Shown: piece after piece, positions 11,534-34,281 of the stretch
Layout of the letters: each line of letters begins with the position of its first letter
Numbering within the stretch: position 1 is the stretch's first letter
NCBI RefSeq assembly: GCF_016464705.1
Contig: NZ_JAEHOB010000012.1
Location: forward strand, 175,191 to 218,909
DNA from: Qaidamihabitans albus
Lineage (GTDB): Bacteria > Actinomycetota > Actinomycetes > Mycobacteriales > Pseudonocardiaceae
Direction of reading: 5' to 3'
Length of the DNA: 43,719 nucleotides
Notes under the pieces: generated by a model
Told to the model about the DNA's origin: nothing
The model's database searches: none
What the model saw: the letters and a program-made list of their open reading frames with translations, nothing else
Program-made: the position numbers and the translations under genes

Positions 11534-11564
11534 AGATCGACACCAGATCGACACCAGCTCGACA
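11534..11564. repeat. 11-bp tandem repeat, about 2.8 copies
   Basis: AGATCGACACC at 11534-11544 and 11545-11555, followed by the partial copy AGCTCGACA. It is too short to call an origin iteron. It sits between the AbiE pair and the tRNA fragment. Confidence 0.6.
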
Positions 11565-11715
11565 AAGTGTCGAATCCCTTGCTATCCGGACGCTATACGC
11601 CGAGCAGCTGACAAGAGCCACCAGGTCAACGCCCACGCGAAGAGATATCCTTCGACCAAGGGATTCCTATCCCGCAAAAGGAACTCAGCATGAATCCGCA
11701 GTTCGAACACGGATC

Positions 11716-11761
11716 GGTGGGCCGGGCGGAGCTCGAACCCGCGGCCAAGGGATTATGAGTC
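11716..11761 (-). other. 3' fragment of a tRNA with anticodon CAT (probable att scar)
   Basis: The minus strand carries a tRNA from the anticodon loop to the 3' end: GACTCATAATC (loop with CAT), then the T arm GCGGGTTCGAGCTCCGC with one G:U pair, the acceptor strand CCGGCCC, and ACC. The sequence upstream does not pair to give the D arm, the 5' acceptor strand or a proper anticodon stem, so it is not a working tRNA. Integrases of actinomycete elements use exactly this part of tRNA genes and leave a duplicated 3' half at one end. An element end is therefore likely here, close to the AbiE pair. Confidence 0.7.
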
Positions 11762-11959
11762 GCGCAACCAGCGGCCAACATGGCTTCTACCTGGTTACTT
11801 GTCGCTCACCGTTGGGTGCGAAACCACTCCAGAGGCAACGATCGACCGCAGTTCGCACCCAAACTCGCACCCACGAACACTGGGCAGGTGTCCGGGTCAG
11901 AGACCAAGCTCACTCCAGCATCGCGGGCGAAAGACAGTCTCTGCTAGTGGGATGGTGCC

Positions 11960-14937: not shown

Positions 14938-16958
14938 GTGTGCACCTCCACCACGAGCGAGCCGGAGGGGTGTGCGCGCACGCTTGCGCCCGGCGGGATC
15001 AGGATCGTCGTGTCCGACTGGTCGACCACGAGCGGACCCTCCCTGGCGCTCTGCTCGGCGATGGCGCCCCGGCCCAGCACCGGTGTGTCGAACGCGCCAC
15101 CGGTGAACACGACGCGCCGCCGTCCCTCGCGACGGTCGGTGTCGTCCGGCACGGTCAGCGGCGGGGTGTCCCGCCGTGCGGTCACGGTCGTGCGCAGGTT
15201 CGCCAGCCGCACCGGCGCCGAACGCGGCATCCCGCCGTAGTGGGCGCGGTAGGCGTCCACGAACGCGGCAGTCAGTCGCTCCTCCGTCCAGCCGTCTGCG
15301 CGGTCGCCCAGCTCGACGGGCACCGTGTGCAGTTGCTTCTGGTAGCTCATCTCTGCCCAGTGCGCCACGGTGAGCTCCTCGCCGGCGAGACCTTCCGCGC
15401 GCAGCTGCCCCGTGCCGCGCCGCGCGTGCCTGGAGAGCACCTGTTCGACCGTGGCCGCGTCGAGGCGTTCCGCGAGGTCCTCCACGGGGTGCGTGAGGTC
15501 GACGCGGGCGTCGGCGACCAGGCAGCCCAGTGCGCTGGCAAGCCCGGGCCTGGGCGGCAGCACGACGTGTGCGCAGCCGATCTCCCTTGCGAGCTCGACG
15601 GCGTGCAGCGGCCCGGCTCCACCGAAGCCGACGAGTGCGAACTTGCGGGGGTCGGCGCCTGCGTCGACGGACACGTTGCGGATCGTGCCTGCCATCTTGG
15701 CGTTGGCCACCGCAATGATGGACAGCGCGGCCTCCTCTGGCGTCTGGCCCAGCGGCTCACCAACACGCTCACGGATGGCGTGCTCCGCGGCCTTCAAATC
15801 CAGGCGCAGCCCCTCCTCAGTGCCCAACGACGCCTCGCTCGGCAGTCGCCCGAGCACCACATTCGCGTCGGTGACCGTGGGTTCTTCGCCGCCGAGGCCG
15901 TAGCACGCCGGGCCGGGGTTCGCGCCTGCGCTGCGCGGTCCCACCTGCAGCACCCCGCCCCGGTCCACCGCCGCGATCGAGCCGCCGCCCGCGCCGATGG
16001 TGTGGATGTCGATCATGGGCAACTTGAGCGGGATCCCGAAGTCGAGCTGGGTCAGGGTGCTTACCGCGGGCGTGCCGCCGGGAATCAGCGCGACATCGAA
16101 CGACGTGCCCCCCATATCCGCGGAAATGACGTCCGGGTGACCTGCTGCGGCCGCGATGGCGGCGGCGGCCACGGTTCCGGCCGCGGGCCCCGACAGCGCG
16201 GTCCTGGCGGGTTCGCGGATCGCCCTCGACACCGGCATCAACCCACCCGAGGACTGCATCACCTGGACCTCGTGCGAGAAGCCGCCCTCCCGCATCTGCT
16301 CGCGCAAGCTACCGAGGTAGTCCCGCATCTTGGGCTGCACGTAGGCGTTCACCGTGACGGTCGACGCACGCTCGAACTCGCCGGCCTCCGCGGCAAGCTC
16401 GTGCGACAGCGAGATCGGGACGTGCGGCAGCCGCTCCCGGAGCGCCGCGCCAAGCCGCCGCTCGGGCTCGGCGTTGGCATATGAGTTCAGTAGGCATACG
16501 GCAACGGCCTCGAAGCCACGCGCCTCGATCCGCTCGGCGAGCCCATCGATCGCCTCTGGTTCCAGCGGAACCAGCACGGTGCCATCCGCTGCGACCCGCT
16601 CGTGGACCTCGAGGCAGTTCGCCCTGGGGGCCAGCGGGCGGTAGTCACTGGTCAGGCCGTAGGTGTGCGGCCGGTCCCTGCGGCGTAGTTCGAGCACGTC
16701 ACGGAACCCGGCCGTGGTGACCAGCGCGACTGTGGCCCCGCGCCGTTCGAGGATGGCGTTGGTCGCAACCGTCGTCCCGTGCACGAGCGTGTCGAGCTCC
16801 GCCAGTGAGGCACCCGCCTCGCGCAACCCGTGCACCAGCCCGTCAGCCTGGTTGACAGTGCTGAGTACCTTCGCGACCGTGATCCGCCCGGTCGTCGTAT
16901 CGGCGATCGTGACGTCGGTGAAGGTGCCCCCCACATCGACGCCGGCGCTTGCCGTCAT
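14934..16958 (-). CDS. hyuA: Hydantoinase A/oxoprolinase-family ATP-binding subunit
   Basis: A 674-residue HyuA-family protein. The N-terminal actin-like ATPase signature DVGGTFTD is at residues 8-15, followed by HGTTVATNAILERRGA; SADMGGTSFDVALI and GAGGGSIA mark the second nucleotide-binding half. Together with HyuB it should use ATP to activate and open a cyclic amide or imide. The ATG at 16958 is chosen because it overlaps the transporter stop by 4 bases (ATGA) and starts the conserved domain; a much longer upstream frame exists but is antisense-type noise. Related CapAB proteins are ATP-dependent caprolactamases, and other relatives act on N-methylhydantoin or 5-oxoproline. Confidence 0.9.
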   Translation of the reverse strand: MTASAGVDVGGTFTDVTIADTTTGRITVAKVLSTVNQADGLVHGLREAGASLAELDTLVHGTTVATNAILERRGATVALVTTAGFRDVLELRRRDRPHTYGLTSDYRPLAPRANCLEVHERVAADGTVLVPLEPEAIDGLAERIEARGFEAVAVCLLNSYANAEPERRLGAALRERLPHVPISLSHELAAEAGEFERASTVTVNAYVQPKMRDYLGSLREQMREGGFSHEVQVMQSSGGLMPVSRAIREPARTALSGPAAGTVAAAAIAAAAGHPDVISADMGGTSFDVALIPGGTPAVSTLTQLDFGIPLKLPMIDIHTIGAGGGSIAAVDRGGVLQVGPRSAGANPGPACYGLGGEEPTVTDANVVLGRLPSEASLGTEEGLRLDLKAAEHAIRERVGEPLGQTPEEAALSIIAVANAKMAGTIRNVSVDAGADPRKFALVGFGGAGPLHAVELAREIGCAHVVLPPRPGLASALGCLVADARVDLTHPVEDLAERLDAATVEQVLSRHARRGTGQLRAEGLAGEELTVAHWAEMSYQKQLHTVPVELGDRADGWTEERLTAAFVDAYRAHYGGMPRSAPVRLANLRTTVTARRDTPPLTVPDDTDRREGRRRVVFTGGAFDTPVLGRGAIAEQSAREGPLVVDQSDTTILIPPGASVRAHPSGSLVVEVHT

Positions 16959-18433
16959 GCGGTTTCCTCCGAAGGGGTTGGCGTGGTCGCCGGTTGCGGC
17001 GTGCGCAACCGGTCGAATGCGGACGTCGCCGCCGCGTCGGTGGGGGTCGCGAGCGACACCCCGACCAGGAGCAGCGCAGTGCCCAGCAAGGTGGGCAGGA
17101 TCGGGTCGAACCATTCCGGCGTGAGCCCCGCGCTTTGCGCGACGCGACCGACCACCGCGGACACCGCGCCAAAGATCAACCCGGTCCATGCGGCCTGTCG
17201 AGTGGTCCGCCGCCAGTACAGGCTGAACAGGATGAGCACGCCGCCGGAAGCGCCGGCGATCGTGTACGCAATGGTCATCATTTCGGTGATGTAGGTCGGA
17301 CGCCACAGTCCGAACGGGAGAGCGGCGAGCCCGAGCAGCACGACGACGTACTTGGTGCGGCTCAGCAACTGCCGATCGCTCCAATCCGTACGGCTGACCT
17401 TGCGTAGCAGGTCGTGGGTACCCGAGGACGCGGCGGTGAGCAACCACGTGTCCGCCGAAGACAAGATGGCCCCCAGGATGGCGGCGAACAAGATGCCTGC
17501 GATGATCGAGGGCGTCTGCTCGACGACGAACCGGACCCACACCGTCTCGGTGTCCGCGACGTTCGGGTAGAGCTTGCGCATCGCCGCCCCGGCGAAACCG
17601 ATCAACGCCCAGAACGGGAGATATACGGCCGAAACCGCGATCCCGGTCTTGATCACATCGCGCTCGCTACGTGCGGCGTAGAACCGAGTGAGGAAGCCGG
17701 GATGGCCGAGGTAACCGAGGAACCACACGAAGAACAGGGCCATCACGTTGAGGACGCTCACCGCCCCGCCCGTCACCCCGAAGAAGCCAGGCTGATCTGC
17801 AGAGACCGTGCTGGTGATCTCGCCCCATCCACCTGCGGCACCGATCGTGGTCGGCACGACCACGACCACCGCGATCAGGAACGCGGCCGCCTGCGCAAAG
17901 TCCGTGTACAGCACGGCTTTCTGCCCACCGAAGAAGGTGTAGAGGATCACCACGGCAGTGATCACGACCACCGACGTGCCGTAGTTCCAGTTCCACAGCG
18001 AACCGAACAGCAGGCCGCCCTGCACCAGCACTGTCGCCAGCAAGAACACCATCCACAGCACCGTGACCCCCGCGAACACCACGCGCAGCCCGGGCGAGTT
18101 GAACCGGCCGGCGAAGTACTCGGGGATGGTGAATCGGCCGTACCTGCGCAACCTGGGCCCGACCGCGAAGCAGATCACCAGCCACGAGAACGCCACACCG
18201 AGCGGGATCCAGTGCACGGAGAAGCCCATGCGGTAATAGGAACTGATCAGTCCGAAGAACGTCGCACCGGACACCGTGGAGGCGATCAACGAGCCGGTGA
18301 TCAACCACCACGGCGCCTGCCGCCCCGCGACGAAGAAGTCTGCTGACCCGCTGGTTCTGCGGTAGCCGTGCCAAGCGGACCAGACGACGACGGCGGCGAA
18401 CACGGCGACGCAGCCCGTGACGACTGTACTCAT
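16955..18433 (-). CDS. Sodium:solute symporter family permease
   Basis: A 492-residue membrane protein with about 13 hydrophobic helices and SSS-family features: FFVAGRQAPWWLITGSLIAS near the start, GGQKAVLYTDFAQ in the middle, and AILGAILSSADTWLLTAAS around residues 310-330, the region that forms a sodium site in this family. It probably imports the lactam, hydantoin or similar compound processed by HyuAB. Its start overlaps the stop of the 39-residue gene, and its stop overlaps hyuA. A Pro/Thr-rich cytoplasmic tail follows the last helix. Confidence 0.9.
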   Translation of the reverse strand: MSTVVTGCVAVFAAVVVWSAWHGYRRTSGSADFFVAGRQAPWWLITGSLIASTVSGATFFGLISSYYRMGFSVHWIPLGVAFSWLVICFAVGPRLRRYGRFTIPEYFAGRFNSPGLRVVFAGVTVLWMVFLLATVLVQGGLLFGSLWNWNYGTSVVVITAVVILYTFFGGQKAVLYTDFAQAAAFLIAVVVVVPTTIGAAGGWGEITSTVSADQPGFFGVTGGAVSVLNVMALFFVWFLGYLGHPGFLTRFYAARSERDVIKTGIAVSAVYLPFWALIGFAGAAMRKLYPNVADTETVWVRFVVEQTPSIIAGILFAAILGAILSSADTWLLTAASSGTHDLLRKVSRTDWSDRQLLSRTKYVVVLLGLAALPFGLWRPTYITEMMTIAYTIAGASGGVLILFSLYWRRTTRQAAWTGLIFGAVSAVVGRVAQSAGLTPEWFDPILPTLLGTALLLVGVSLATPTDAAATSAFDRLRTPQPATTPTPSEETA

Positions 18434-18549
18434 TGGCGACCACCCCGCTCACGCTTCGTGCGCAGCAGGTAGGCGCCGATGACGAAGGCCAGGGCCATCT
18501 GCAGGATCCCGATCAGCAGCAACGGAATCACGTCGGTGAACCAATCCAT
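18430..18549 (-). CDS. 39-residue single-helix membrane peptide, likely symporter partner
   Basis: ATG 18549 is preceded by AAGGAG at 7 bases and opens a 39-residue frame: MDWFTDVIPLLLIGILQM, a hydrophobic helix of about 25 residues, then a positive tail TKRERGGRQ. Its TGA overlaps the ATG of the symporter in ATGA. The inside-positive tail suggests a cytoplasmic C-terminus. Small hydrophobic subunits encoded just before SSS-type permeases are known (YhdT/DUF3311-like arrangements), so an accessory subunit role is likely, though not shown for this sequence. It is below the size that many gene finders report. Confidence 0.75.
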   Translation of the reverse strand: MDWFTDVIPLLLIGILQMALAFVIGAYLLRTKRERGGRQ

Positions 18550-18599
18550 ACGGACACTCCTTGACCGGCCAATGTGGCCTCGCGGGCGGAAAAGCCCGT

Positions 18600-19367
18600 T
18601 CATTTACTTGCGACGCTGGTCGCGAGAATCTTCGACATACGGTCAGCGGTCTCGGTGAGCTCACCCAGCCATTGCGACGGCCGGAATCGGGGGTTCGGCC
18701 CGGCGATACTCAATGCGGCAGCTACGCGACCGTGCCGATCCCTGACCCCGGTGGCGATCCCCCGCACCTCGTCGGTGTACTCCTCGTCATTGGTGGCATA
18801 CCCCTGCCTTCGGACCTCGGCCAGCTGTCGCAACAGCACGGGCTTCCGGCGGGTCGTGTACCTGGTCACCGCAGGCAGGGTCTCGGTGGGGAACAACGCG
18901 TCGAGTTCGTCGCGGTCCAGCTCGGCCAGGAAGACCTTGCCGGAACCGCAACTGTGCACGGGCATCCTGGTACCGATCCGGATCTCTGCGCGCAGGATGC
19001 TCGCACTCTCGAAACGCTGCACGATGATCGCGTCCCGGCCCCGGTGGATGGCAAGCGAGACCGCCTCACCGGAAAGATCCGCGAGCCGCCGCATCGGTGG
19101 CGCCAGCGCGCCCCCGAAGCGAGTGCTCTCCGGCACCGCGGAGCCGATCTCGAAGGCCGCGATGCCCAACCGGTAACTACCCGTGTCCAGCCGTTCCACG
19201 AATCCGTGGTCGGCCAGTGTCGCCAGCAGCAAATGCACCGTGCTCTTGCCGAGCTCCAGCCGGGTCGCCAACGCAGACACTCCGAGACCGTCCGGGCTAT
19301 CGGCAAGCTGAGCGAGCAGGCGGAGCGCGTTGCTTACGCTATTGACTCGACGCGGTGCGTTCGACAT
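18600..19367 (-). CDS. IclR-family transcription regulator
   Basis: A 255-residue regulator. Residues about 10-68 are the winged helix (VSALATRLELGKSTVHLLLA) and about 80-250 the IclR effector domain (MPVHSCGSGKVFLAELD; GYATNDEEYTDEVRGIATGV; AALSIAGPN). IclR proteins bind a small organic acid or similar inducer. It is first in the operon and 50 bases before the small membrane gene. A palindrome overlaps its own start codon and a related one lies about 100 bases upstream, suggesting autoregulation and control of the whole operon. Confidence 0.92.
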   Translation of the reverse strand: MSNAPRRVNSVSNALRLLAQLADSPDGLGVSALATRLELGKSTVHLLLATLADHGFVERLDTGSYRLGIAAFEIGSAVPESTRFGGALAPPMRRLADLSGEAVSLAIHRGRDAIIVQRFESASILRAEIRIGTRMPVHSCGSGKVFLAELDRDELDALFPTETLPAVTRYTTRRKPVLLRQLAEVRRQGYATNDEEYTDEVRGIATGVRDRHGRVAAALSIAGPNPRFRPSQWLGELTETADRMSKILATSVASK

Positions 19368-19567: not shown

Positions 19568-20060
19568 TCACTCACGTGCGCATGTACCGGCTGCTGTACC
19601 TGGCTCTCGCCCGAGGCTCCATAGGGCCAGCGCGAGGCCGCCGCAGCATACGAGCGCCAGGACAATCAGGCCTCCGTGGGCGCCGACCACGGAGGTGAGG
19701 CCGCCGAGCACAGCAGAGCACGCGCTGCCGCACGTGAGGAAGCCGAGGGTCGCGAACCCCGTGACCACACCGCGGATCTTGATCACGGCCAGATCGCTCA
19801 CGACCGAGAACAGGGAGGGCTGGCCGAGGCTGAAGGCGGCGCTGACCATGGCGACTCCGGCGACCATCGGCACGACCCATCCCACGAACACGCCCAACGC
19901 GGACAGTACAGCGCCGCACAGGCCATCCCGGCGGTGATAGCCAGGCTCGCCCCGTTCCCGAACCTGCGGGTCACCCGCTGAGTGATTCGAGGCACGATCA
20001 CCGTGACCACCGCGCTGAGCACCATCGTGAGCCCGACGAGAGCCGGGCCAGCACTGCCAG
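19568..20060 (-). pseudogene. C-terminal part of a frameshifted MFS transporter
   Basis: Two frames carry consecutive helices of a major facilitator: PALVGLTMVLSAVVTVIVPR then LTRRF-like basic loop VTRRFGNGASLA, followed after a frame change near 19900 by VGWVVPMVAGVAMVSAAFSL and GVVTGFATLGFLTCGSACSA. Only about the last five helices remain, without a start. It resembles drug- or metabolite-exporting MFS proteins. It is dead and separates the IclR operon from the acyl-CoA operon. Confidence 0.65.
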
Positions 20061-20341
20061 CACGATTCCTACCGGCGAAAGCAAATGCAGGAGTTTCTCG
20101 GGATTGATGTCCAGAGGCACCGATGTCGCCATTTCGCGTCCCGCATTGTTGTCCTGCGGGACTGCCCAAGTAGCCGTGGAGCACGGTTTACGCGACACGC
20201 CGCGCCGAGTGCGATGATCTCGCCGTCGTGGATGCGTCGCCCACCGGGTCACCGTCGCGCAGGGTCGTACAGACCGCCGGCCTCGGGCCTCAAATTCGCA
20301 CTTGCCATGGCAGGTACTGGCAACTTTCGAACCACGGCGTG

Positions 20342-21598
20342 CTACTTGCGCTGAGCTGCTGCTCGGCGAGTGGGCACGTGCTCGGTCGGCACCCGGTCCG
20401 CTGGCGCGGAGTACTCGCGCAGGACCCGGCGCGCGACGACCTGGCGGTGCACCTCGTCCGGTCCGTCGTAGATGCGCGCCGCCCGCGCGCGCCGGTACAT
20501 GTCCTCCAACGGCAGGTCGGCCGAGAAGCCGAGCGAGCCGTGCGCCTGCAATGCCCGGTCGATCACGTCATGCAGCACCTTGGCGCCCCAGAACTTGATC
20601 GCGCTGATCTGGGTGCGCGCGGCGGCGACACCCTCGTGGTCGATGATCCATGCGGCCTGGAGGGTCAGCAGCCGCAGGGCACCCAGCTCGGTCCACGAGT
20701 CGGCGATCCAGTTCTGGACCGTCTGCTTGTCGGCCAGGAGTGAACCATGGCTGTAGCGGTAGAGCGCGCGCTCACACAGCATGTCCAGTGCACGCTGGGC
20801 CTGCCCGACCCACCGCATGCAGTGGTGGATGCGGCCGGGACCAAGCCTGCTCTGCGCGATCGCGAAGCCGGCGCCACGCTCGCCGAGCATCGCCGTGCCC
20901 GGCACGCGGACACCGGCCAGCGACACCTCCGCGTGATTGTCGAGCCGCCGGGGCCGCGGGCAGGGGTCCTCCATCGACCCGAGATCGCGCTCGACGATAA
21001 GCCCGGGTGTCCCCGCGGGTACCAGGAACTGGGTGGCCCGCCGGCGGGATTCCGCATCGGGGTCCGTCACGGCCATGACGATGAAGAAGTCGGCGATGGA
21101 GGCATTGGTGATGAACCACTTGCTCCCGTCCAGCACCCAGTCCTCGCCGTCTCGGACCGCGGTCGTACGCAGCAGGGTGGGATCGGCACCCGCCTCCGGT
21201 TCGGTCATCGCATAGGCGGAGCGGATCTTCCCCTCGAGAAGAGGGTAGAGAAATTGCTCTCGCTGCGCCGCCGTACCGAACCTGGCGATGATCTCGCTGT
21301 TACCCGAGTCCGGAGCCTGGTTGCCGAACACGGGCGGCCCGAACCGTGACCGCCCGATGATCTCGTGCATGAGCCCGAGCTTGACCTGACCGAAGCCGCG
21401 TCCGCCTAGTTCAGGGTCGAGATGCGCGGCCCACAGGCCGCGGCGCTTCACCTCCTCCTGCAGCGGCGCCAGTGCACGCAGAAGCCCTTCGTCGTCGAGG
21501 TCGAGGGTCTCCAGCGGGTAGACCCACTCCTCGACGAACCGGCGCATCCAGGACAGCTCGCGCGCGAACTCGGCATCCGTGGCGAAGTCCCAACTCAT
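20342..21598 (-). CDS. Acyl-CoA dehydrogenase, ACAD10/11 (LvaC-like) type
   Basis: A 418-residue flavoprotein with the ACAD fold: MTEPEAGADPTLL, DGSKWFITN, and the C-terminal block LGPGRIHHCMRWVGQAQRAL, ADKQTVQNWIADS, and RAARIYDGPDEVHRQVVARR. The block GPGRIHHCMR is typical of the ACAD10/11 branch rather than classical beta-oxidation enzymes. In the levulinate pathway the LvaC member removes phosphate from a 4-phospho-acyl-CoA to give an enoyl-CoA. The ATG at 21598 overlaps the ligase stop (ATGA). Last gene of the nine-gene operon. Oxidation of an ordinary acyl-CoA remains possible. Confidence 0.9.
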   Translation of the reverse strand: MSWDFATDAEFARELSWMRRFVEEWVYPLETLDLDDEGLLRALAPLQEEVKRRGLWAAHLDPELGGRGFGQVKLGLMHEIIGRSRFGPPVFGNQAPDSGNSEIIARFGTAAQREQFLYPLLEGKIRSAYAMTEPEAGADPTLLRTTAVRDGEDWVLDGSKWFITNASIADFFIVMAVTDPDAESRRRATQFLVPAGTPGLIVERDLGSMEDPCPRPRRLDNHAEVSLAGVRVPGTAMLGERGAGFAIAQSRLGPGRIHHCMRWVGQAQRALDMLCERALYRYSHGSLLADKQTVQNWIADSWTELGALRLLTLQAAWIIDHEGVAAARTQISAIKFWGAKVLHDVIDRALQAHGSLGFSADLPLEDMYRRARAARIYDGPDEVHRQVVARRVLREYSAPADRVPTEHVPTRRAAAQRK

Positions 21599-23145
21599 GC
21601 GCTCATCCTCTCCCGTACCTTGAACTTCTGGACCTTCCCCGACGTCGTCCGCGGCAGCGGATCCCGAGTGAAGCTGTATTTCCGGGGGATCTTGTAGTTG
21701 GCCAGGTTCTCCCTGAGATAACCCACCAGCTCCTCCTCGTCCAGCGCGGCTTCGGGGGCGAGCACCACGAGCGCGTCTCCCACCTCGCCCCAGCGCGGGT
21801 CCTCGACCCCGACGACCGCTGCCTCCAGCACAGCCGGGTGCTGAGCGATAACCCGCTCGACCTCGGCGGGATACACGTTGAGCCCACCCGTGATGATCAT
21901 GTCCTTGGACCTGCCCGAGATGTAGACGAAGCCCTCGTCGTCCACCTGAGCAAGATCTCCGGTGTGTAGCCAGCCGTCGACGAGCGTGCTCGCCGTCGCC
22001 TCCGGCCTCCCGTAGTAGCCGAGCATGGTGGCCGGCGAGCGGCAGATGATCTCGCCGACGGCACCCACCGGGGTGTCCTGTCCCTTCTCGTCGACGATGC
22101 GAATCTCGGCCGCGCTGCACGCCCTCCCGGCCGAGCCGATCTTACGCTCGGCGTTCGGACCGTCGAGGTAGAGCATCATGGTGGGGAACTCGCTCATGCC
22201 GTAGCACTGCAGCAATGCGCACGTAGGAAGCTTGCGGCGGGCGTCCTGGATGGCGGTGATCGGTACTGGTTCCCCGCCACTGCAGATGATGCGCAGCGAC
22301 GAGAGATCGAATCGGTCGAACGCCGGATCCGCCAGCACCCGTTTGAGCACCGTAGGCACCAGCAGTGCCGAGGTGATCCGCTCCCGTTCCACAGTGGAGA
22401 AGAAGCGCTCCGGCTCGAAGCCGGTGCTCGGACTGAGTACCACCCGGCCGCCCATCCACAGCGTGGCCAGTGCGATGTCGTGGAATCCTGCCGCCCAGCA
22501 CAGCGCCGGCACCACCAGGAACACCTCGTCGGAAGTGATGCCGTAGTCGACGACCTGGTGAAATGAGTTCCACAGCACGGTCGCGTGGGAATGCATGGCA
22601 CCTTTGGGAACGCCGGTGGTGCCCGAGGTGTACTGCAACAGGAAGAGGTCGTCCGCACGGATGGCCGAAGTGGGTGCGGCCGCCGTACGCCCGGACTCCA
22701 TCAACTCCGCGTAGTCGAGTACCCCGCCCTCGGACTTCCCGGTGGCGACACCGACGTAGCGGCGATCGCTCGCGCCGTCACCGGCGAAGGGCACGATCGA
22801 GCGTAACCCTTCCTCGAACACCAGCCAGGAGGCACCGCAGTCGTCCAGGATGAACTCGACCTCCTGGCGCTTGAGCAGGTAGTTCACCGGCACGACCACA
22901 CCACCGAGCTTCGCGACCGCGAAGAAGATTTCCGGCCATTCGACCCGGTTGTACATGAGCACACCGACGCGTTCGCCCTTGACGAATCCCTCGGCCGCGA
23001 GGGCGGCCGCCAACCGGTCCGAGCGTTCATCGAGTTCGTCGTAGGTCAGCCGGGTGTCCCCGCAGACGACTGCGACCCGGTTCTCGTTGACGCGATGGGC
23101 AGTGCGCGGTTTGCGGAGCAGCTCGGCCACCGTATAGCTGTCCAT
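21595..23145 (-). CDS. AMP-forming acyl-CoA ligase
   Basis: A 516-residue ANL-superfamily ligase that should join a carboxylic acid to CoA with ATP. The P-loop is YTSGTTGVPKGAMHSH, the adenine motif is YGMSEF, the hinge is GWLHTGDLAQVDDEGFVYI and GRSKDMIITGGLNVYPAEVE, and the catalytic lysine lies in PRTTSGKVQK. The start ATG 23145 has GAAGGGA upstream; longer in-frame starts lack homology. Position between the small partner gene and the acyl-CoA dehydrogenase suggests it activates the hydroxy acid delivered by the importer, like LvaE. Confidence 0.92.
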   Translation of the reverse strand: MDSYTVAELLRKPRTAHRVNENRVAVVCGDTRLTYDELDERSDRLAAALAAEGFVKGERVGVLMYNRVEWPEIFFAVAKLGGVVVPVNYLLKRQEVEFILDDCGASWLVFEEGLRSIVPFAGDGASDRRYVGVATGKSEGGVLDYAELMESGRTAAAPTSAIRADDLFLLQYTSGTTGVPKGAMHSHATVLWNSFHQVVDYGITSDEVFLVVPALCWAAGFHDIALATLWMGGRVVLSPSTGFEPERFFSTVERERITSALLVPTVLKRVLADPAFDRFDLSSLRIICSGGEPVPITAIQDARRKLPTCALLQCYGMSEFPTMMLYLDGPNAERKIGSAGRACSAAEIRIVDEKGQDTPVGAVGEIICRSPATMLGYYGRPEATASTLVDGWLHTGDLAQVDDEGFVYISGRSKDMIITGGLNVYPAEVERVIAQHPAVLEAAVVGVEDPRWGEVGDALVVLAPEAALDEEELVGYLRENLANYKIPRKYSFTRDPLPRTTSGKVQKFKVRERMSA

Positions 23146-23173
23146 GATGTTCCCTTCGGGCGGAGGTGGGTTC

Positions 23174-23590
23174 TCAGCGTATGCGTTTGAGCTGTTCGTC
23201 GAGGTCGGCACGGAGCACGGTCCTGATGTCGCGCAACAGTTCCATGCTGGGCTCGGGCTCTTGCCACAACCGGGCGACCAGCCGCTCCACCGCCTCCAGC
23301 GCCGCGACGCGCCGCCCGGACGGCGTCGCCGGCGCCGTGCCACTCGGCGAATCGAGCGCGGTGCACACGATTTCCGGACCTGCTTCGCGCCAGCGGTGCA
23401 CGGCGGTCTCCAGCTGCTCTGCCGAGCGCGCCGCCCACTCGTCGTCCTCCCGCGTCTGCAGTACGAGCTCACCCAAGATCCCGGCGGCGGCGACCACGGA
23501 CGAACGGGCGCGCTGGTCCGTGACGGCGGGCAACACGCGGGCCAGGAGCTCCTGCCGGATGGCGAGTAGCGCCCGCTCCGGCGTGATCAC
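23174..23590 (-). CDS. Small helical protein, probable kinase partner (LvaB/DUF6285-like)
   Basis: A 138-residue, mostly helical soluble protein: ALLAIRQELLARVLPAVTDQ, then ARSSVVAAAGILGELVLQ, ending in acidic/basic helices. The GTG at 23590 overlaps the stop of the APH-type kinase by 4 bases, so the two are coupled. Small proteins of this size and position next to APH-type acyl-CoA kinases include LvaB, which is needed for LvaA activity in Pseudomonas putida. It resembles DUF6285 proteins by eye. The link rests on position and weak similarity. Confidence 0.6.
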   Translation of the reverse strand: MITPERALLAIRQELLARVLPAVTDQRARSSVVAAAGILGELVLQTREDDEWAARSAEQLETAVHRWREAGPEIVCTALDSPSGTAPATPSGRRVAALEAVERLVARLWQEPEPSMELLRDIRTVLRADLDEQLKRIR

Positions 23591-24606
23591 GCGGCCTCGA
23601 GCAGGTCGGCGACCATCCGGCGCATGATCGGCATGGTGTAGTGCATGCGGGCGAGCCGGAGATCGTCGGTCGCTCCACTCTCGAATGAGTGCCCGGCCTC
23701 AAGCCACATCACGGCATGCCGCACCTGGTGAAAGAGAACCCAGAACCGGAGTGCAGTGCGGTTCACCGTCGTGCCGGTGCAACGCTCGTAGCGCGTGAGC
23801 AGCGTCTCCTCGGGCAGCAGCATGCAGACTAGCTCAGTGCCGATCCGGTTGGAGGGACAGCACACCCAGCCGAGGTCGTAGAGGGGGTCACCGAGGGCGG
23901 CGAACTCCCAGTCGAGCACTGCGGTGACGCGGTCGTCTTCGAAGAGCAGGTTGCCGGTGCGATAGTCGCCGTGCACCAATGCCGTTCGCGCGGAGGGTGG
24001 GATCTGGTTGCGCAAAAGACCCAGTGCATCGACCAGGAGCGGCTCGGGTTCCACACGAACCCGCCGCAGGTAACGCTCCAACTCGGCGACCCTGGCCTCG
24101 GCGAATCCCCGCCCAGGGCCGGGGACGCCGAGGAAGCCCAGATCGAGGGCGCGCCAGTCGACGGCGTGGATGTCCGCGAGCAGCCGCACGAACAGGTCCC
24201 CGATCGGCCCGCGCCCGGCCTCGGCGAGGTAGGCCCGTCCTTCCGGCGACCACGGCACGACCGCGGATCCGGGTTGCCACGACACGACCGAGTACGGACC
24301 TCCGAACAGCTCGGGGTCGGGATCGAACCACAACGGGCGCGGCACCGGCAGCCCCGCGACGGACAACGTGGTGAGCAACCGGTGCAAGCGCTCCGGCCTG
24401 ACCTCGTGCCGGGCGACCGTGCCGGGACGGAACAACCGCACGACGAGTCGTAGCGGTTCGCCGGAGGGACGATCGAAATCCAGGATCGCGGTCTCGTCCG
24501 AGAGCCCCTCTCCGGCGATGCTCCGGTGCGCGAGGTGGACGGGTTCGTCCAGCCGCTCGGTGAAGCGCCGCTCGATCCGTTCGCGCGGGCAGTCGCTGAT
24601 TCCCAT
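23587..24606 (-). CDS. APH-type phosphotransferase, ACAD10/11- or LvaA-like acyl-CoA kinase
   Basis: A 339-residue kinase-like protein. Catalytic loop VHGDYRTGNLLF gives D214 and N219; the metal-binding aspartate is D232 in LDWEFAALGDPLYDLGW; the N-lobe carries VVRLFRPG around 55-62. This branch is related to the APH domain fused to ACAD10/11 in animals and to LvaA, which phosphorylate the 4-hydroxyl of 4-hydroxyacyl-CoAs. Antibiotic phosphorylation is unlikely given an acyl-CoA ligase and ACAD10/11-type dehydrogenase in the same operon. It starts 8 bases after the ABC ATPase stop. Confidence 0.88.
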   Translation of the reverse strand: MGISDCPRERIERRFTERLDEPVHLAHRSIAGEGLSDETAILDFDRPSGEPLRLVVRLFRPGTVARHEVRPERLHRLLTTLSVAGLPVPRPLWFDPDPELFGGPYSVVSWQPGSAVVPWSPEGRAYLAEAGRGPIGDLFVRLLADIHAVDWRALDLGFLGVPGPGRGFAEARVAELERYLRRVRVEPEPLLVDALGLLRNQIPPSARTALVHGDYRTGNLLFEDDRVTAVLDWEFAALGDPLYDLGWVCCPSNRIGTELVCMLLPEETLLTRYERCTGTTVNRTALRFWVLFHQVRHAVMWLEAGHSFESGATDDLRLARMHYTMPIMRRMVADLLEAA

Positions 24607-24614
24607 GTCGCCGC

Positions 24615-26162
24615 CTAGAAGATCGCCGCGTACATGATCTTCTCCTGCGTCGCCTCCTCGCGGCTGAACTCCGCGACCGTTCGCCCGAAGCGAGTGACCA
24701 GGATGCGATCCGAGATCGTGAGAACCTCGGGCAGGTAAGACGAGATGACGATGACCGCCTTGCCGTCATCGGCCAGCTGCCGGATCAGCTGGTGGATCTC
24801 CTCGATGGCCCCGACGTCCACCCCCCGGGTGGGCTCGTCGAAGATCACCACCTCGGGTTCCTGCACCAGGGACTTGCCGACGGTGAGCTTCTGCTGGTTG
24901 CCGCCGGAAAGCTCCACCACCTTCGCGTCCGCGTCGATGGCCTTGATGCGCAACCGGTGCGACCACTCCCGCGCGATCTGTTCCCGCTTACGCCGGGAGA
25001 GCAGCCAACTACGCCTGCCGTTGCGGGAAGCGAGGTGGCCGAGGTAGAGGTTCTCGGCCACCGTCATCGTCTCGAAGAAGCCGTCGAGCTTGCGGTCCTC
25101 CGTGATGTAGACGATGCCGTCGTCGATGGCCTGCTTGGGCACCCGGTAGCGGACCGGGCGACCGTTGAGCAGCACTCGACCGCCGTGGATACGGTTCCGT
25201 TTCAGCATCCCGGTAATGATCTTCGCGGTCTCCGTGCGCCCACTCCCGATCAGGCCCGCGATTCCGAGCACCTCCCCCGCATAGGCGGAGAAGGACATGT
25301 TGCGCACCACGTTGCCGAGGATCAGGTTCTCCACCTCGAGCACCTTTCGCTTACGCGCCGGGGCGCCGGTGCCCGGGACGGTCCGCTCGGGACCGCTGCC
25401 CAGCGACCGGCCCACCATGTAGCGGATGATCTCCTCCCGGTTCGTCCGTGCGGTGTCCACCGTGGCGACCCGCTCGCCGTCCCGCAGCACCGTGACCCGG
25501 TCCGCGATCTGCAGGGACTCTTCCAGCGCGTGCGACACGTAGATCACCCCGAGGCCCGCCGCACGAAGTTCGGCGATGACGTCGAACAAGTGCAACGTCT
25601 CCTCGGGCGTGAGGCTCGCGGTCGGCTCGTCGAAGATGACTATCCGCGCCTGCGACCGGAGTGCCCTGGCGATCTCGACCATCTGCTTCTTGGCGGCACC
25701 GAGCGTGGAGACGTAGGCGGTGGGGTCCACGTGGAAGTTCATCGACTGCAGCAACTGCTGGGCACCGATGTTCAGCGAGCGGAACCGGGTGAGCAGCTTC
25801 TCGTGACCCAGTTCGATGTTCTGCGCCGCGGTCATCGTGGGCACCAGGCTGGTCTCCTGGTAAACCATGGCGATGCCGTGCTCGAGCGCGTCGTGCGGCC
25901 TGCGGAAGTTCACCTGACTCCCACAGATCCGCAGCTGCCCTTCGGAGGGTTGGACCGCGCCGGCGAGGATCTTGCAGAGCGTGGACTTGCCAGCACCGTT
26001 CTCACCGACGAGGGCGTGCACCTCACCGGCGACGAGGTCGAAATCGATCTCGTGGATGGCGTGCACCCCGCGATAGGTCTTGGTCACGCTACTCATCTCG
26101 ACGAGGGCGGAACCGGTGCTTTCCAGGGCACCTCCCACGGCATCGGCGATGGCGTTGCTCAT
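24615..26162 (-). CDS. Ribose-type (CUT2) ABC transporter ATPase
   Basis: A 515-residue protein with two nucleotide-binding domains, as in RbsA. The first has Walker A GENGAGKS (53-60), a degenerate signature (LGAAKKQMVEIARAL) and Walker B IVIFDEPTASLT. The second has a degenerate Walker A (GLIGSGRTE), a good signature LSGGNQQKLTVGKSL and Walker B VVIFDEPTRGVDVGA. Such asymmetry is usual for CUT2. It powers import by the two permeases encoded upstream. Its ATG overlaps the stop of the free propeller gene. Confidence 0.93.
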   Translation of the reverse strand: MSNAIADAVGGALESTGSALVEMSSVTKTYRGVHAIHEIDFDLVAGEVHALVGENGAGKSTLCKILAGAVQPSEGQLRICGSQVNFRRPHDALEHGIAMVYQETSLVPTMTAAQNIELGHEKLLTRFRSLNIGAQQLLQSMNFHVDPTAYVSTLGAAKKQMVEIARALRSQARIVIFDEPTASLTPEETLHLFDVIAELRAAGLGVIYVSHALEESLQIADRVTVLRDGERVATVDTARTNREEIIRYMVGRSLGSGPERTVPGTGAPARKRKVLEVENLILGNVVRNMSFSAYAGEVLGIAGLIGSGRTETAKIITGMLKRNRIHGGRVLLNGRPVRYRVPKQAIDDGIVYITEDRKLDGFFETMTVAENLYLGHLASRNGRRSWLLSRRKREQIAREWSHRLRIKAIDADAKVVELSGGNQQKLTVGKSLVQEPEVVIFDEPTRGVDVGAIEEIHQLIRQLADDGKAVIVISSYLPEVLTISDRILVTRFGRTVAEFSREEATQEKIMYAAIF

Positions 26163-27283
26163 CGCATCCCTCCCACGGTCGATTCCAGCACCAGGTCCCC
26201 GCCGCGCGCCGCGATCAGCAGCCGGTCGCCGAACTGCCGGGCGGAGGTCACCCCGTGACGGTTGGCGCCGCCCCTACTGTGCAGGCTCGACTGGGCGTGC
26301 CCGTCCTCCTCGATCCGGGCCACCAGCCCGTAGGATCTGGGCGGCGCCCACGGTTTGATGACACCCAGCTTGCGGATCTGTCCGCCCTGCAACGGCTCCA
26401 GACCCGAGTTGAGCGTGCGCAAGGCCGGTCGGATCCAGTAGTCGGGCTCGATGATGCGCATCATCTGCTCCACGTAGTCGCGCTGAGTCAGCACGAACTC
26501 GACCAGCTGCGTGCGTAAGGCGAAGACAGCGAGCCAGTAGCCACCGTCCGCCGCGGGCGCGATCCGGCCCGGATAGCCGGGAAGGTTGGCCCGTATCTGC
26601 TCGGGCGAACGGATGTCCGCCAGCGGGTAGCGGACGAGCCGGTGAGCCCAGGCCTCCGAGACGACGAGCGCGTCCTCCTCGGGGGAAAGGCACAAGCCAC
26701 TCGGATAGCGCAGGCCATCGGCCAGCACCTGCGCACGCCCGCCCGAGCGTGGGCAGCGCAGCAGCCTGCCGAGGGCGTTCAGCTCCATCAGGTCGCGGAC
26801 CCAGTCTCCACCGTGGTGCCGCTTCGACCCGTCCGTGAGATACACCGTTCCGTCCCCGGCGACGGCGACCCCCGTGGGGCACTGGACCGGCTGACCGTCG
26901 TCGGCGACGTCCGTGACCACGGTGGTCGTCGCATCCGGCCCGACTCGCAGCAGCCCGGCGCCTGCCACGCAGACGAACACCCCGCCGTCGCCGTCCCGTG
27001 CGATCGCGCCGGCCTCGCCGTCGAAGCTCGCGACCACGCTCCTGTCCCGGAATCGTGGTCCGGACAGTCGCAACAGGGAACGCCCGCTGGTGACCAGGAG
27101 GCTCCCGTCGGCGTCCAGGACCACGTCGTCGGGTTCCTGGACAGGCGCCTCGTGGGCGGGCTCGAGCTCATCCAGCCGGTCATTGGGGGTGAGCCCACCG
27201 TCGAGCGGCGGGATCGACGAACCCCGATGCCGTCCGGGGAACAGGAACTCCCTGACCAGATTGAGTGCCTCACGTCCGGGCAT
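26159..27283 (-). CDS. Strictosidine-synthase/SMP-30-like beta-propeller, probably degenerate
   Basis: A 374-residue soluble propeller. Repeats include PDDVVLDADGSLLVTS, GDGTVYLTDGSKRH, LRYPSGLCLSPEEDALVVSE, and LPGYPGRIAPAADGGYWLAV. It aligns blade by blade with the propeller part of the fusion protein encoded just upstream. Yet positions that hold metal-binding residues in this superfamily differ: Glu to Asp at 52, Asn to Ser at 195, and the Asp-Asn pair to Gly-Arg at 239-240. It may be a non-catalytic partner or binding protein. ATG 27283 has AGGAGG 8 bases upstream. No signal peptide is seen. Confidence 0.82.
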   Translation of the reverse strand: MPGREALNLVREFLFPGRHRGSSIPPLDGGLTPNDRLDELEPAHEAPVQEPDDVVLDADGSLLVTSGRSLLRLSGPRFRDRSVVASFDGEAGAIARDGDGGVFVCVAGAGLLRVGPDATTTVVTDVADDGQPVQCPTGVAVAGDGTVYLTDGSKRHHGGDWVRDLMELNALGRLLRCPRSGGRAQVLADGLRYPSGLCLSPEEDALVVSEAWAHRLVRYPLADIRSPEQIRANLPGYPGRIAPAADGGYWLAVFALRTQLVEFVLTQRDYVEQMMRIIEPDYWIRPALRTLNSGLEPLQGGQIRKLGVIKPWAPPRSYGLVARIEEDGHAQSSLHSRGGANRHGVTSARQFGDRLLIAARGGDLVLESTVGGMR

Positions 27284-27296
27284 GTGGTCGTCCTCC

Positions 27297-29504
27297 TCAG
27301 CTCACGGTCGCCGGGGTCGTCGATGCTGTTCGTGCACTGCCGTCCGCGCCGGTCCGGGGACCGCCACGGTCGAGCTTGATCCGCCCGACCCGGTTGTTCT
27401 CCAGCCCGCCGATGTAGAGATAGCCGTCGTGCTCCCGCATCGACGTGATGGTGGCGTGCGCCTCCCCGCCGGGATCCCAGAACGTCTCCAGCACCTCGCC
27501 CTCATCGGACACCTTCACCACACAACCGTGGTTCATGCTCGGGTAGAGCCACTCGTCCCGGGGAATTCGCTTCATCATCCGTCGCCGGAAGGTGGGCATG
27601 CGCATGGCGAGGTCGTAGGCGGGCGAACGCATCCCGTTGAGCGCGACCCAGTACGCGCCGTCGGAGGATCGGTTGATGTTGTCCAGATATCCGGGGAAGT
27701 TGTCCATGAAGACCTCGATGCGGCCCTGGCGGGGCCCGCTGTGCCAGTAGCGCAGGATCCGGCAGAGCCAAGTCTGCGCGATCAGCAATGACTCGCCGTC
27801 GTGGGCACTGCAGATGCCGTTCGGGAACACCAGGTCCCGAACTACCGTGCGGGTCTGGCCGGTCGCCGGGTCGTAGCGCACGAGGCGGCCGTTGGGCCTG
27901 CCCTCCACACCGTCGAGGACCCAGTCCGCCATGTCGAATCGCGTGGTCGCCTCACTGAAGTAGATCTGCCCGCCGGGTGTGATGTCGAGGTCGTCCGCCA
28001 TCCGCAGCCTCGAGTCGTCCCGCAGCCTCGTCCAGGTCCGGCCGGTCTCGTCGGAGAGCTTGCGGTGCGTGCCGTCCGGCGCCACCGCGTAGAGGCCCAT
28101 CCCGCCGACGCACACGATGAGGTTCTCGTCGGAGTCGAAGCCGAGCCCCAGCGGATGCCCACCGATGCGCGCGAAGATCTCCTTGTGTCGGAAGCCTTCT
28201 CCGGAGAAGCGGACGATCCAGCCCTGGCGGGTGCCGCAGTAGAGACGGCCCTGCCGGTCCAGCACGACGTCCTCAGGTCCCTCCACCTCACCGGCGCCGA
28301 TGGATTCGGCGTCGCGTAGCCGGTCGTTGATCTCGAACGGGCTGCCCGAGCCTTGGCGCACATCCGGTAGTGGCCCGTACTCGACCACGGTCGGGTTCAC
28401 GTACACCTTCTGAATCGCCTTGCCGCGGTTCTTGCCCCACTTGATGTCCAGGCCGACCGCCACGATCAGCACGATCGCGAGCGCCGTCTGCAGAGTCTCC
28501 CCTCCGACGTTCATCAGCAGGAGTCCCTTGCCGAGCAGGCTGATCGTGGCGGCGCCGATGAACGCCCGCCACACCGTGCCTTTGCCTCCGGAGAGGCTGA
28601 TGCCGCCGAGGATGACCGCGGTCAGCACGTTGAGCTCCAGCCCCTCGCCGACTCGTGCGCTGGCGCTGCTCAGCCGCGCCGCGTAGAAAATGCCCGCCAG
28701 CGCGCACAGCAGCCCGGCGAAGACGTAGCTGACCAGCAGCACGCGTTCCACCCGGATCCCCGCGTGCCTGGCCGCCCTCCTGCTGGCGCCGACCGCCGTG
28801 ATGTGCCATCCCAACCGGGACCGGCTGAGCACAACGTGCCCGAGGAGCAACACCACGAGCAGAGTGATGAAGCTGAAGGGGATCCCGGCGACCTTGCCCG
28901 TACCGAACCACTCCCACACCGGGTCGGTCACGAAGACGGTGGCGGTCTGCGCGGCGAAGTTGAGGTCGAGCAGATTCAGCACACCACGGAAGATGATGAG
29001 CGTGACCAGCGTCGTCAGGAACGGTCGCGCCTTCAGGTAGGCCACGATGCCGCCGTTGACGCTACCGAGAATCGCGCCGGCGAGCAGGGTGACACCGATC
29101 GCGGGCAGGACCGGCACTCCGCCGATGGTGATCAGCAGCAGCATGATCATGTTGCACAGGCCGAACATCGACCCAACGGAGAGATCGATACCGCCGGAGA
29201 TCATCACGATCGCCATGCCGACACAGACGAAGGCGATCTCCGCGAGCTCCGCCGAGGAGGAGAGCAGGTTCTCCGGTGTCGCGAAGGCGGGCGTGGTCAC
29301 GGAAAAGAAAACGATCACCGCGATCAGCAGCGCGAGCGGGATCGCCGGTTCCATCCAGCGCTTCTCGAAGAGTTCGGCGAACACCTGCTGCGGTGCCGCC
29401 CGGTGGCGCAGTTCACGGATCCGCTTGCCGATGGGCTGCGGTCCGATCACGTTACGTTCGGGTGGGCGGCGTGCGGACCGCCGCGAGGTCACACTGGCCG
29501 TCAT
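27297..29504 (-). CDS. Fusion: ABC sugar-type permease plus strictosidine-synthase/SMP-30-like propeller
   Basis: A 735-residue single frame with two complete parts. Residues about 50-355 are an RbsC-type permease with 8-10 helices, the SGGIDLSVGSMFGL family motif and GGISLSGGKGTVWRAFIGA. A linker at about 356-400 leads to a six-bladed propeller at about 401-712 with GPEDVVLDRQGRLYCGT, MADDLDITPGGQIYFSEAT, FPNGICSAHDGESLLIAQTW and FPGYLDNINRSSDGAYWVAL, then MNHGCVVKV typical of strictosidine-synthase-like proteins. E411, D504/D505, N562 and D608/N609 keep metal-site-type residues. The last permease helix places the propeller on a cytoplasmic or outer face; the charged linker suggests cytoplasmic. 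It may hydrolyse a lactone as it enters. No frameshift at the seam. Confidence 0.88.
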   Translation of the reverse strand: MTASVTSRRSARRPPERNVIGPQPIGKRIRELRHRAAPQQVFAELFEKRWMEPAIPLALLIAVIVFFSVTTPAFATPENLLSSSAELAEIAFVCVGMAIVMISGGIDLSVGSMFGLCNMIMLLLITIGGVPVLPAIGVTLLAGAILGSVNGGIVAYLKARPFLTTLVTLIIFRGVLNLLDLNFAAQTATVFVTDPVWEWFGTGKVAGIPFSFITLLVVLLLGHVVLSRSRLGWHITAVGASRRAARHAGIRVERVLLVSYVFAGLLCALAGIFYAARLSSASARVGEGLELNVLTAVILGGISLSGGKGTVWRAFIGAATISLLGKGLLLMNVGGETLQTALAIVLIVAVGLDIKWGKNRGKAIQKVYVNPTVVEYGPLPDVRQGSGSPFEINDRLRDAESIGAGEVEGPEDVVLDRQGRLYCGTRQGWIVRFSGEGFRHKEIFARIGGHPLGLGFDSDENLIVCVGGMGLYAVAPDGTHRKLSDETGRTWTRLRDDSRLRMADDLDITPGGQIYFSEATTRFDMADWVLDGVEGRPNGRLVRYDPATGQTRTVVRDLVFPNGICSAHDGESLLIAQTWLCRILRYWHSGPRQGRIEVFMDNFPGYLDNINRSSDGAYWVALNGMRSPAYDLAMRMPTFRRRMMKRIPRDEWLYPSMNHGCVVKVSDEGEVLETFWDPGGEAHATITSMREHDGYLYIGGLENNRVGRIKLDRGGPRTGADGSARTASTTPATVS

Positions 29505-29592
29505 GGGACTCTCTCTCAGAAGGGTTCCGAATTACGCCACCGGGTCCGGGACACCGGGCCGGAACCAGCGATGTCCCGGACCGGAGGCGTCG

Positions 29593-30669
29593 TCAGGAGA
29601 CGGACAGACCATCGTTCTTGCCGTCGTAGCACATGTTGGGCTGGTCCCAGTTTTGCCGAGTGATCTTGACCAGCGGTGTGTAGTCGGCGATGCGGGCAGT
29701 GCCCGGAGCCTGTCCGGATTGCAGCAGATACTTCGCGATGGCCACGATGTCGGTGCCCTGCGTCGGCACCGAGTACCCGTAGGACTGGAAGAACATCCCG
29801 TCGCGCAGTGCCTCGCACGTGATCTTGCTGTGGTCGGAGGTGAACACCTTGACCTGGTCGATCTTGCCCGCTTCCTTGATGGCCGTGGCGGCGCCGTACT
29901 GCATCTGGTCCCAGAAACCCCAGCTGGCGCAGAGGTCCGGGTGTTGCTGGATGACGGTGGCGGTGATGTCGTGCGCCTTGGTGCGGTCCCAGTTCGCCGC
30001 CTGCGTCGACACGACCTTGATTTCGGGGTGCTTGTCAAAGACCTGCTTGGCGCCTGCCATAACGTCCAGGGTGAATCCCGACGTGGCGTCCCCTTGGACG
30101 ATCTGGACCTTGTGCGAGGTGGACGTACCCTTACCGCACTCCGCGACGATGTCGGTCGCGATACGGCGTCCCAGATCGATGGTATCCGCACCCACGAAGG
30201 CACCAGACTTGTAGTTGGACACCATGTTGATCTGAATCACGTGAATTCCGGCCTGCTCGGCCTGCTGGATCAGCTTCGCCAGGACCTGCACGTCGAAGTT
30301 GTGCACGACGAGCACGGCAGGCTTCTCGTTGATGAGCGACTGCACGGCCTCCGCCTGCTTCGCGGTGTCCCAGTTGGGGTCCCGGACGACGAACTCCATT
30401 CCGGCGGCCTCGAAGCCTCGCTTCATCTGCCGGGCCCATTCCTCGGTGAGCGGCGTGCCGAGGCCGACCGGCACGAAGGCAGCCTTCTCACCCTGCAGGC
30501 TGTCCAGGGCGTGATTGCGCAGATCGTTCGACGATACCGTGGCCGGAAGCTGGTCTCCCCCTTCGGACTCCGCACCGGAATCACTTCCGGTCGAGCAGCT
30601 CGTCAGCGCGAGCCCGGCCACCAGAGCGAGCGCCGCCCCCCGCAGACCGGCCAGTTGAGCCTTACGCAT
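29593..30669 (-). CDS. CUT2 ABC transporter substrate-binding lipoprotein
   Basis: A 358-residue periplasmic-type binding protein. The leader ends in a lipobox LALTSC with the lipidated cysteine at residue 25. The mature part is a Peripla_BP_4 fold: FVPVGLGTPLTEEWARQMKR, AVLVVHNFDVQVLAKLIQQA, AGIHVIQINMVSN, GFTLDVMAGAKQVF, and WGFWDQMQYGAATAIKEAG. Relatives bind sugars, autoinducer-2 or other small polar compounds; the ligand here is not a standard sugar if the catabolic context is right. ATG 30669 has AAGGAGG 7 bases upstream. Confidence 0.92.
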   Translation of the reverse strand: MRKAQLAGLRGAALALVAGLALTSCSTGSDSGAESEGGDQLPATVSSNDLRNHALDSLQGEKAAFVPVGLGTPLTEEWARQMKRGFEAAGMEFVVRDPNWDTAKQAEAVQSLINEKPAVLVVHNFDVQVLAKLIQQAEQAGIHVIQINMVSNYKSGAFVGADTIDLGRRIATDIVAECGKGTSTSHKVQIVQGDATSGFTLDVMAGAKQVFDKHPEIKVVSTQAANWDRTKAHDITATVIQQHPDLCASWGFWDQMQYGAATAIKEAGKIDQVKVFTSDHSKITCEALRDGMFFQSYGYSVPTQGTDIVAIAKYLLQSGQAPGTARIADYTPLVKITRQNWDQPNMCYDGKNDGLSVS

Positions 30670-30702
30670 TCAGGACCTCCTTGTCCTCTCGATGTCCGGC
30701 GG

Positions 30703-31701: not shown

Positions 31702-31724
31702 GTTCGCTCCATGCACTCGACGCC

Positions 31725-31764
31725 TGTACCAATCGGTCGGTGTGTGTACCGACCGAACGGTACA
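31725..31764. promoter_or_regulatory. Two TetR-type operators between importer operon and racemase
   Basis: TGTACCAATCGGTCG begins at 31725. A second site at 31745-31764 has perfect arms TGTACCG and CGGTACA around six bases. Both match the sites at 34282, 34367 and 36158 (consensus TGTACCGATCGGTCA). They lie 24-63 bases upstream of the permease start and over 120 bases before the racemase. Confidence 0.7.
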
Positions 31765-31888
31765 CTACTCACGTTGGCCGTCAAGATGGAGAAGGCCCGA
31801 CGCCCACGACCCGGCAGCGGCCGTCACCTGATGAGGTGACGCCGCCGTTGTCATCCGTGCCCGGAGCCGACCAGTCTGGAGTGAGATA

Positions 31889-34267: not shown

Positions 34268-34281
34268 TTCGTCCTCCCGAT

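Follow-up and report, generated by a model that had tools for sequence, protein, structure and literature searches.

A nine-gene operon of the actinomycete Qaidamihabitans albus probably serves to take up a small hydroxy acid, or the lactone of one, and to remove the hydroxyl group by way of phosphorylation. The operon lies within a stretch of 43,719 nucleotides (positions 175,191 to 218,909 of contig NZ_JAEHOB010000012.1; hereafter, the window). Its last four genes, on the minus strand from 24606 to 20342, encode an APH-type kinase, a 138-residue protein, an AMP-forming acyl-CoA ligase, and an acyl-CoA dehydrogenase resembling LvaC of the bacterial lva operon and animal ACAD10 and ACAD11. The other five genes extend the operon upstream to 31716 on the same strand and encode an ATP-binding cassette (ABC) importer accompanied by two propellers, one of them fused to a permease. 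The kinase and dehydrogenase appear to be of an already-known kind; what is new is the operon that joins them to an importer bearing a fused propeller.

An earlier reading of the sequence, made without database searches (the sequence-only reading), had described the four genes as consecutive and overlapping or closely spaced, and both the coordinates and the translated reading frames bear this out. The kinase and small-protein genes overlap by 4 bp at GTGA, the small protein having a GTG start; 28 bp separate the small-protein gene (end 23174) from the ligase gene (start 23145); and the ligase and dehydrogenase genes overlap by 4 bp. In the list of open reading frames, the ligase frame begins further upstream and the 592-aa dehydrogenase frame is over-long. 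From 31716 down to 20342, all intergenic gaps calculated from gene coordinates are at most 88 bp. The importer and propellers were also named in the earlier reading and do belong to the same operon, but they lie outside the four-gene stretch in which it placed them.

The dehydrogenase (418 aa; 20342–21598, minus strand) matches all acyl-CoA dehydrogenase domains in Pfam. Its best sequence matches in the PDB are 4hr3 (1.4e-79) and ACAD11 (8v3u, 8.4e-72; 8v3v, 4.1e-71; 2wbi, 2.2e-70), with the next ones far behind (4.1e-46 and weaker). According to the accessible part of a study of ACAD11, R626, H634, and R637 contact the phosphate and are absent from conventional dehydrogenases, R631 is common to conventional dehydrogenases, and D753 is the catalytic base (PMC12440821). 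The window enzyme has this Arg, His, Arg pocket in a fingerprint block, RLGPGRIHHCMR, that starts at residue 251, and it has a catalytic Asp instead of Glu (Asp378, in RIYDGPDEVH). Among the best 8 of the 37 dehydrogenase matches in the same genome (L001–L008), the set and the Asp occur together in three (the window gene, L002, and L003), and the other five lack the set and have Glu. Block variants found elsewhere (RLGGGRIHHAMR in L171 and L172, RLGGGRMHHAMR in L034, RLGPGRIQHCMR in L174, and RLGPGRIFHCMR in L175) all keep the first Arg, the second His, the last Arg, and the Asp. Both the motif table and the PDB matches thus agree with the sequence-only reading, which had recognized the GPGRIHHCMR block of ACAD10/11 and assigned the enzyme to the LvaC and ACAD10/11 kind; the block also sets it apart from conventional dehydrogenases. 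Judged by its sequence, the dehydrogenase is a member of this subgroup, and we propose that it eliminates phosphate from a 4-phosphoacyl-CoA. The closest plasmid-borne dehydrogenases (65%; L169 and L170) are found on Rhodococcus plasmids with a kinase, a flavin-dependent oxidoreductase, and a riboflavin-synthesis gene.

Alternatively, the hydroxyl removed by the kinase and dehydrogenase might not be that of a simple 4-hydroxy acid; it could lie elsewhere on the chain (5- or 6-hydroxy) or on a cyclic or terpenoid acyl-CoA that arises downstream of import. Plasmids of Rhodococcus, Massilia, and Caulobacter do carry dehydrogenase homologs (50–65%) in catabolic clusters of various kinds, and the window cluster also includes an alcohol dehydrogenase, a short-chain dehydrogenase/reductase (SDR), and a CoA-transferase. 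However, the full ACAD10/11 fingerprint is kept in the window enzyme, and members of this type that have been studied act, in the accessible parts of the published accounts, on 4-hydroxyacyl-CoAs; we regard this alternative as unlikely.

The substrate that we propose for the kinase is a 4-hydroxyacyl-CoA. The kinase (339 aa; 23587–24606, minus strand) matches Pfam APH (2.9e-35) and, as had been read from the sequence alone, retains D214, N219, and D232, that is, the catalytic Asp, the Asn, and the metal-binding Asp of the APH-type family. Together with H212 and G213, these residues do not vary across five aligned kinases, the window's among them. Among solved structures, its sequence is closest to 9o56, 3dxp, and the ACAD11 kinase domain (the last at 1.7e-12), which supports its assignment to the LvaA and ACAD10/11 kind, also made in the sequence-only reading. 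In a phylogeny of 48 kinases (among them no LvaA or ACAD10/11 sequence, and with five falling into no group), a branch with support of 98/97 separates 7 small-partner kinases and 30 DUF6285-linked kinases from 6 partnerless kinases that adjoin ACAD10/11-type genes. The tree is compatible with a single origin of the small-partner kinases. The placement of the L034 kinase is unsure because of its long branch.

The 138-aa protein (23174–23590, minus strand) had been likened to LvaB, which we take to be a member of DUF6285 (PF19802). The likeness holds for position, since the gene stands in the same place beside the kinase gene and overlaps it by 4 bp, but not for family: the DUF6285 profile matched neither this protein nor any other in its genome. 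The protein had no match in Pfam even at an E-value of 10 and none in NCBIfam at 0.001. The PDB search gave nothing useful (ClpC, at E 0.12 or worse), and among 60 genomes of relatives, only 2 had a match, namely its own and one weak (6.9e-4). Folded from sequence alone, it is predicted to be helical, as had been proposed, with five helices and a pLDDT of 63, too weak for the model to be used in a fold search. When the profiles of the small family and DUF6285 were compared with corrected starts, the hhalign probability was 1% or less; a further comparison, of 7 small proteins with 19 stand-alone DUF6285 sequences, gave a probability of 4% (E 0.01) over the first helix only. In this latter comparison, the score of 21.2 exceeds those of 39 column shuffles (at most 14.7). 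Because the weak similarity is confined to the first helix, kinship of the two families is suggested rather than shown.

Might the small protein be an unrelated gene and the kinase act alone, as in ACAD11? The absence of any family match would fit this, as would the absence of a small gene between the kinase and ACAD10/11-type genes in 4/4 plasmid loci examined. The accessible text on Pseudomonas citronellolis also reports no lvaB in the region analyzed (PMC6692424). Against this, the kinase is followed by a homologous small gene in five loci (the window, L029, L033, L174, and L175), in L175 without an adjoining ligase or dehydrogenase. In Sulfitobacter (L022), the small gene after the kinase is a more distant one (157 aa, 18% identity to that of the window), with a relative in L173. 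DUF6285, present in 34/150 genomes of the order, follows the kinase or is fused to it in all 30 actinomycete loci examined (of 38 matches), and in 12 of these 30 (L130–L134, L137, L144, L146–L149, and L152), it lies in frame at the kinase C-terminus, so that kinase and DUF6285 form one protein. A kinase without a partner seems improbable to us. LvaB is reported to interact with LvaA (PMC6692424), and the small protein, LvaB-like by position, may be a partner of the window kinase. In L173 (1656–19782; a plasmid of Rhodobacteraceae bacterium QY30), the kinase and small gene lie beside subunits that resemble, by eye in the open reading frames, 2-hydroxyacyl-CoA dehydratase or benzoyl-CoA reductase, and an ATPase activator.

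The ligase (516 aa; 21595–23145, minus strand) matches Pfam AMP-binding (8.2e-88) and AMP-binding_C, and no NCBIfam ligase model among those listed reached its cut-off. It is thus an AMP-forming acyl-CoA ligase, as originally read, for which the role of an LvaE-like activator is plausible. In Amycolatopsis deserti (L043), a 72% identical ligase directly follows the importer ATPase, and the flanks examined contain no match to the kinase or the ACAD10/11-type dehydrogenase.

Going upstream from the kinase, all on the minus strand, the importer genes encode an RbsA-type ATPase with two ABC domains (24615–26162), a free-standing propeller of the SSL/SMP-30 type (26159–27283), an RbsC-type permease with a C-terminal propeller of the strictosidine-synthase-like or PON type (27297–29504), a Peripla_BP_4 substrate-binding protein (29593–30669), and a second RbsC-type permease (30703–31716), the first gene of the operon. 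The binding protein, BPD_transp_2 permeases, and double ATPase recognized by Pfam make up an RbsABC-type set. The fused propeller has a predicted six-bladed fold, in which E411, D/N504, N562, and D608 are conserved across phyla in an alignment of 21 rows; these positions were located by sequence context, not by coordinate superposition. We take E, N/D, N, and D to be the calcium ligands of PON, DFPase, and SMP-30 propellers, and they match the listed DFPase mutants E21, N120, N175, and D229. The propeller is predicted by the model to sit on the cytoplasmic end of the permease and may act as a lactonase or esterase. The importer could then be a transporter-coupled lactone trap, in which the cytoplasmic propeller opens a lactone and the hydroxy acid is handed to the ligase and on to the kinase and dehydrogenase. 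We put this idea forward tentatively. If true, uptake would be made irreversible, and because the module also works for other catabolic clusters (in Actinomycetota and three proteobacterial classes), it would represent an undescribed class of ABC importers with a built-in hydrolase.

Several observations weigh against uptake of a hydroxy acid or lactone with hydrolysis by the fused propeller. Strictosidine synthases, which are not known to be lactonases, are its second-best structural matches; one of the 21 rows has G at position 562; by NCBIfam, sugar importers are the nearest relatives of the binding protein, permeases, and ATPase; and a hydropathy scan alone gives nine segments for the fused permease, an even number depending on the helices of the model. 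The same chemistry could be supplied by direct import of a hydroxylated acid, alcohol, or polyol, with both propellers serving as non-catalytic docking or sensing domains. The metal-ligand positions lost from the free-standing propeller in the alignment would agree with such a role, as would the alcohol and aldehyde dehydrogenases that neighbor the importer elsewhere. Yet a scaffold would not need the four ligand positions that the fused propeller has kept across phyla, and we consider direct import rather doubtful.

The importer recurs widely. Loci were picked for carrying the fusion, some may come from near relatives, and some are cut at contig ends; 42 of 80 genome loci that match little more than the permease part were left out of the counts. 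All five importer genes were matched in 56 of 61 other loci (16/16 in L022–L037, 33/38 genome loci in L043–L080, and 7/7 plasmid loci in L180–L186), and the contig ends early in the remaining five (L053, L059, L065, L074, and L078). The free-standing propeller gene adjoins the fusion gene in every locus whose contig reaches that far. Hosts belong to Actinomycetota and Alpha-, Beta-, and Gammaproteobacteria and include Amycolatopsis, Bradyrhizobium, Mesorhizobium, Sulfitobacter, Paraburkholderia, Pantoea, and Yersinia. Within the order, 10/397 genomes, that of the window included, have a match at an E-value of 1e-60.

Besides the window, 4 of the 61 other loci (L029, L033, L034, and L022) have a kinase and an ACAD10/11-type dehydrogenase adjoining the importer, and L034 has neither the small gene nor the ligase; no such pairing was found among the 38 fusion-bearing genome loci L043–L080. 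As the genome of 6.5 Mb holds at least three ACAD10/11-type genes, about 1% of random 20-kb stretches would be expected to contain one. The three kinds of kinase paired with the importer sit on deeply separated branches of the kinase tree. The link first noticed in the window recurs elsewhere, as does its operator motif (below). In another actinomycete family (L174, 5718–8945), an apparently whole kinase and small gene are accompanied by a ligase match in two pieces, a shortened ATPase remnant beside the kinase, and a dehydrogenase; an assembly fault is possible because the genome is a draft of 81% completeness. Between the dehydrogenase and the importer of the Sulfitobacter locus (L022), a gene at 10850–11857 encodes a hypothetical 335-aa protein, and a protein that looks similar by eye lies near the kinase in L173.

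The operon and nearby genes for beta-oxidation appear to be linked by a common operator motif. Two TetR-type palindromes, ACCRAYCGRTYGGT, lie at 31728–31761 (no strand assigned), between the operon and a divergent gene for a family III CoA-transferase (31889–33073, plus strand), orthologs of which (70%) adjoin the operon in L029 and L033. A pattern derived from these palindromes occurs upstream of the first importer gene in 5/5 loci (the window, L028, L029, L033, and L043). Of 27 sites, 9 lie in the regions upstream of cluster genes, which make up 4,196 of 126,686 bases (binomial P = 1.3e-7); this count includes the two palindromes themselves and comes from related loci. The pattern is enriched in L028, L029, L033, and L043, where 0 to 3 of 100–200 shuffles reach the count. 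Further matches, outside the 9/27 count, lie at 34280 (near the TetR/dehydrogenase junction) and 36161 (near the alcohol dehydrogenase/thiolase junction). The neighboring genes encode a second acyl-CoA dehydrogenase of a conventional family (33113–34297, minus strand; homolog of 73% near the importer in L028), a TetR-family regulator (TetR_C_24; 34326–35063, plus strand), a Zn alcohol dehydrogenase (35085–36137, minus strand; homologs of 61–63% in L029 and L033), a thiolase (36144–37382, plus strand; homolog of 63% in L028), and a 3-oxoacyl reductase-like SDR (37288–38106, plus strand; homologs of 62–64% in L028, L029, and L033). We infer that the TetR protein acts at the palindromes and regulates the cluster. 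No sigma-70-type promoter was found in 19900–32100, where terminator-like sites number 6 against 3.7 expected.

Under the proposed pathway, the ABC importer would take up the compound, and the cytoplasmic propeller of the permease may hydrolyze a lactone or ester on arrival. The ligase would form the hydroxyacyl-CoA, the kinase with its small helical partner would phosphorylate the 4-hydroxyl, and the dehydrogenase would use its Arg/His/Arg pocket and flavin to expel the phosphate, yielding a 2-enoyl-CoA. Beta-oxidation could then be completed by three neighbors that have the operator motif in common with the operon, namely the SDR, the thiolase, and the second dehydrogenase. This scheme, with a gamma-hydroxy acid or lactone as its presumed substrate, has to be set against three further observations. 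At the position of the ACAD11 alphaC Glu, which lies beside a CoA-binding Arg and was the feature compared for LvaA and ACAD10/11 kinases, the window kinase has Leu74 (R73-L74) in a pairwise alignment. Taken across the entire window, the operator pattern shows no enrichment (5 matches where 2.74 are expected, with 13/100 shuffles reaching 5). Finally, 57/61 other importer loci lack the kinase/ACAD10-11 pair in the flanks examined (at most 14 kb and often much less), and the substrate of the importer therefore need not be a 4-hydroxy acid.

Elsewhere in the window, a separate catabolic set adjoins at 11960–19367 (a class III aminotransferase, a hydantoinase/oxoprolinase B and A pair, a sodium:solute symporter, and an IclR regulator), and an AbiEii-type nucleotidyltransferase gene (Pfam PF08843) lies at 9937–10944.

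If the proposal is right, 4-hydroxy-acid chemistry recently worked out in animals is carried into a dedicated bacterial operon for uptake and degradation, and a widely conserved importer has a hydrolase-like domain on its permease. Both aspects are directly testable and bear on the metabolism of lactones, levulinate, and hydroxy acids and on the engineering of such pathways. In agreement with the sequence-only reading, which knew of no such combination, we found no account of it in the open-access literature, judged mostly from search listings and with most subscription journals outside their reach. Among the papers listed, PMC6710368 mentions an SMP-30 protein as well as an ABC permease.

The closest known system is the lva operon, in which, according to papers that cite its description, a kinase, a small protein, an acyl-CoA ligase, and an ACAD10/11-type dehydrogenase likewise occur together. 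The likeness was drawn from those papers, not from the LvaA–E sequences. The window operon differs in its actinomycete host, its order of kinase, small protein, ligase, and dehydrogenase, its small protein without a DUF6285 match, and its dedicated RbsABC-type importer with propellers. With mammalian ACAD10 and ACAD11, it has in common the pocket residues R626, R631, H634, R637, and D753 and the catalytic Asp and Asn of the kinase, whereas its enzymes are separate polypeptides, its kinase is distant (1.7e-12), and a small partner is present. The importer resembles RbsABC-type sugar importers (BPD_transp_2, Peripla_BP_4) in its two permeases, binding protein, and double ATPase but differs from them in the C-terminal propeller carried by one permease and in the adjoining second propeller gene. 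The fused propeller, in turn, has the six-bladed fold and the ligand positions E, D/N, N, and D of strictosidine-synthase-like, paraoxonase, DFPase, and SMP-30 lactonase propellers and, unlike them, is joined to a membrane permease, on its predicted cytoplasmic side.

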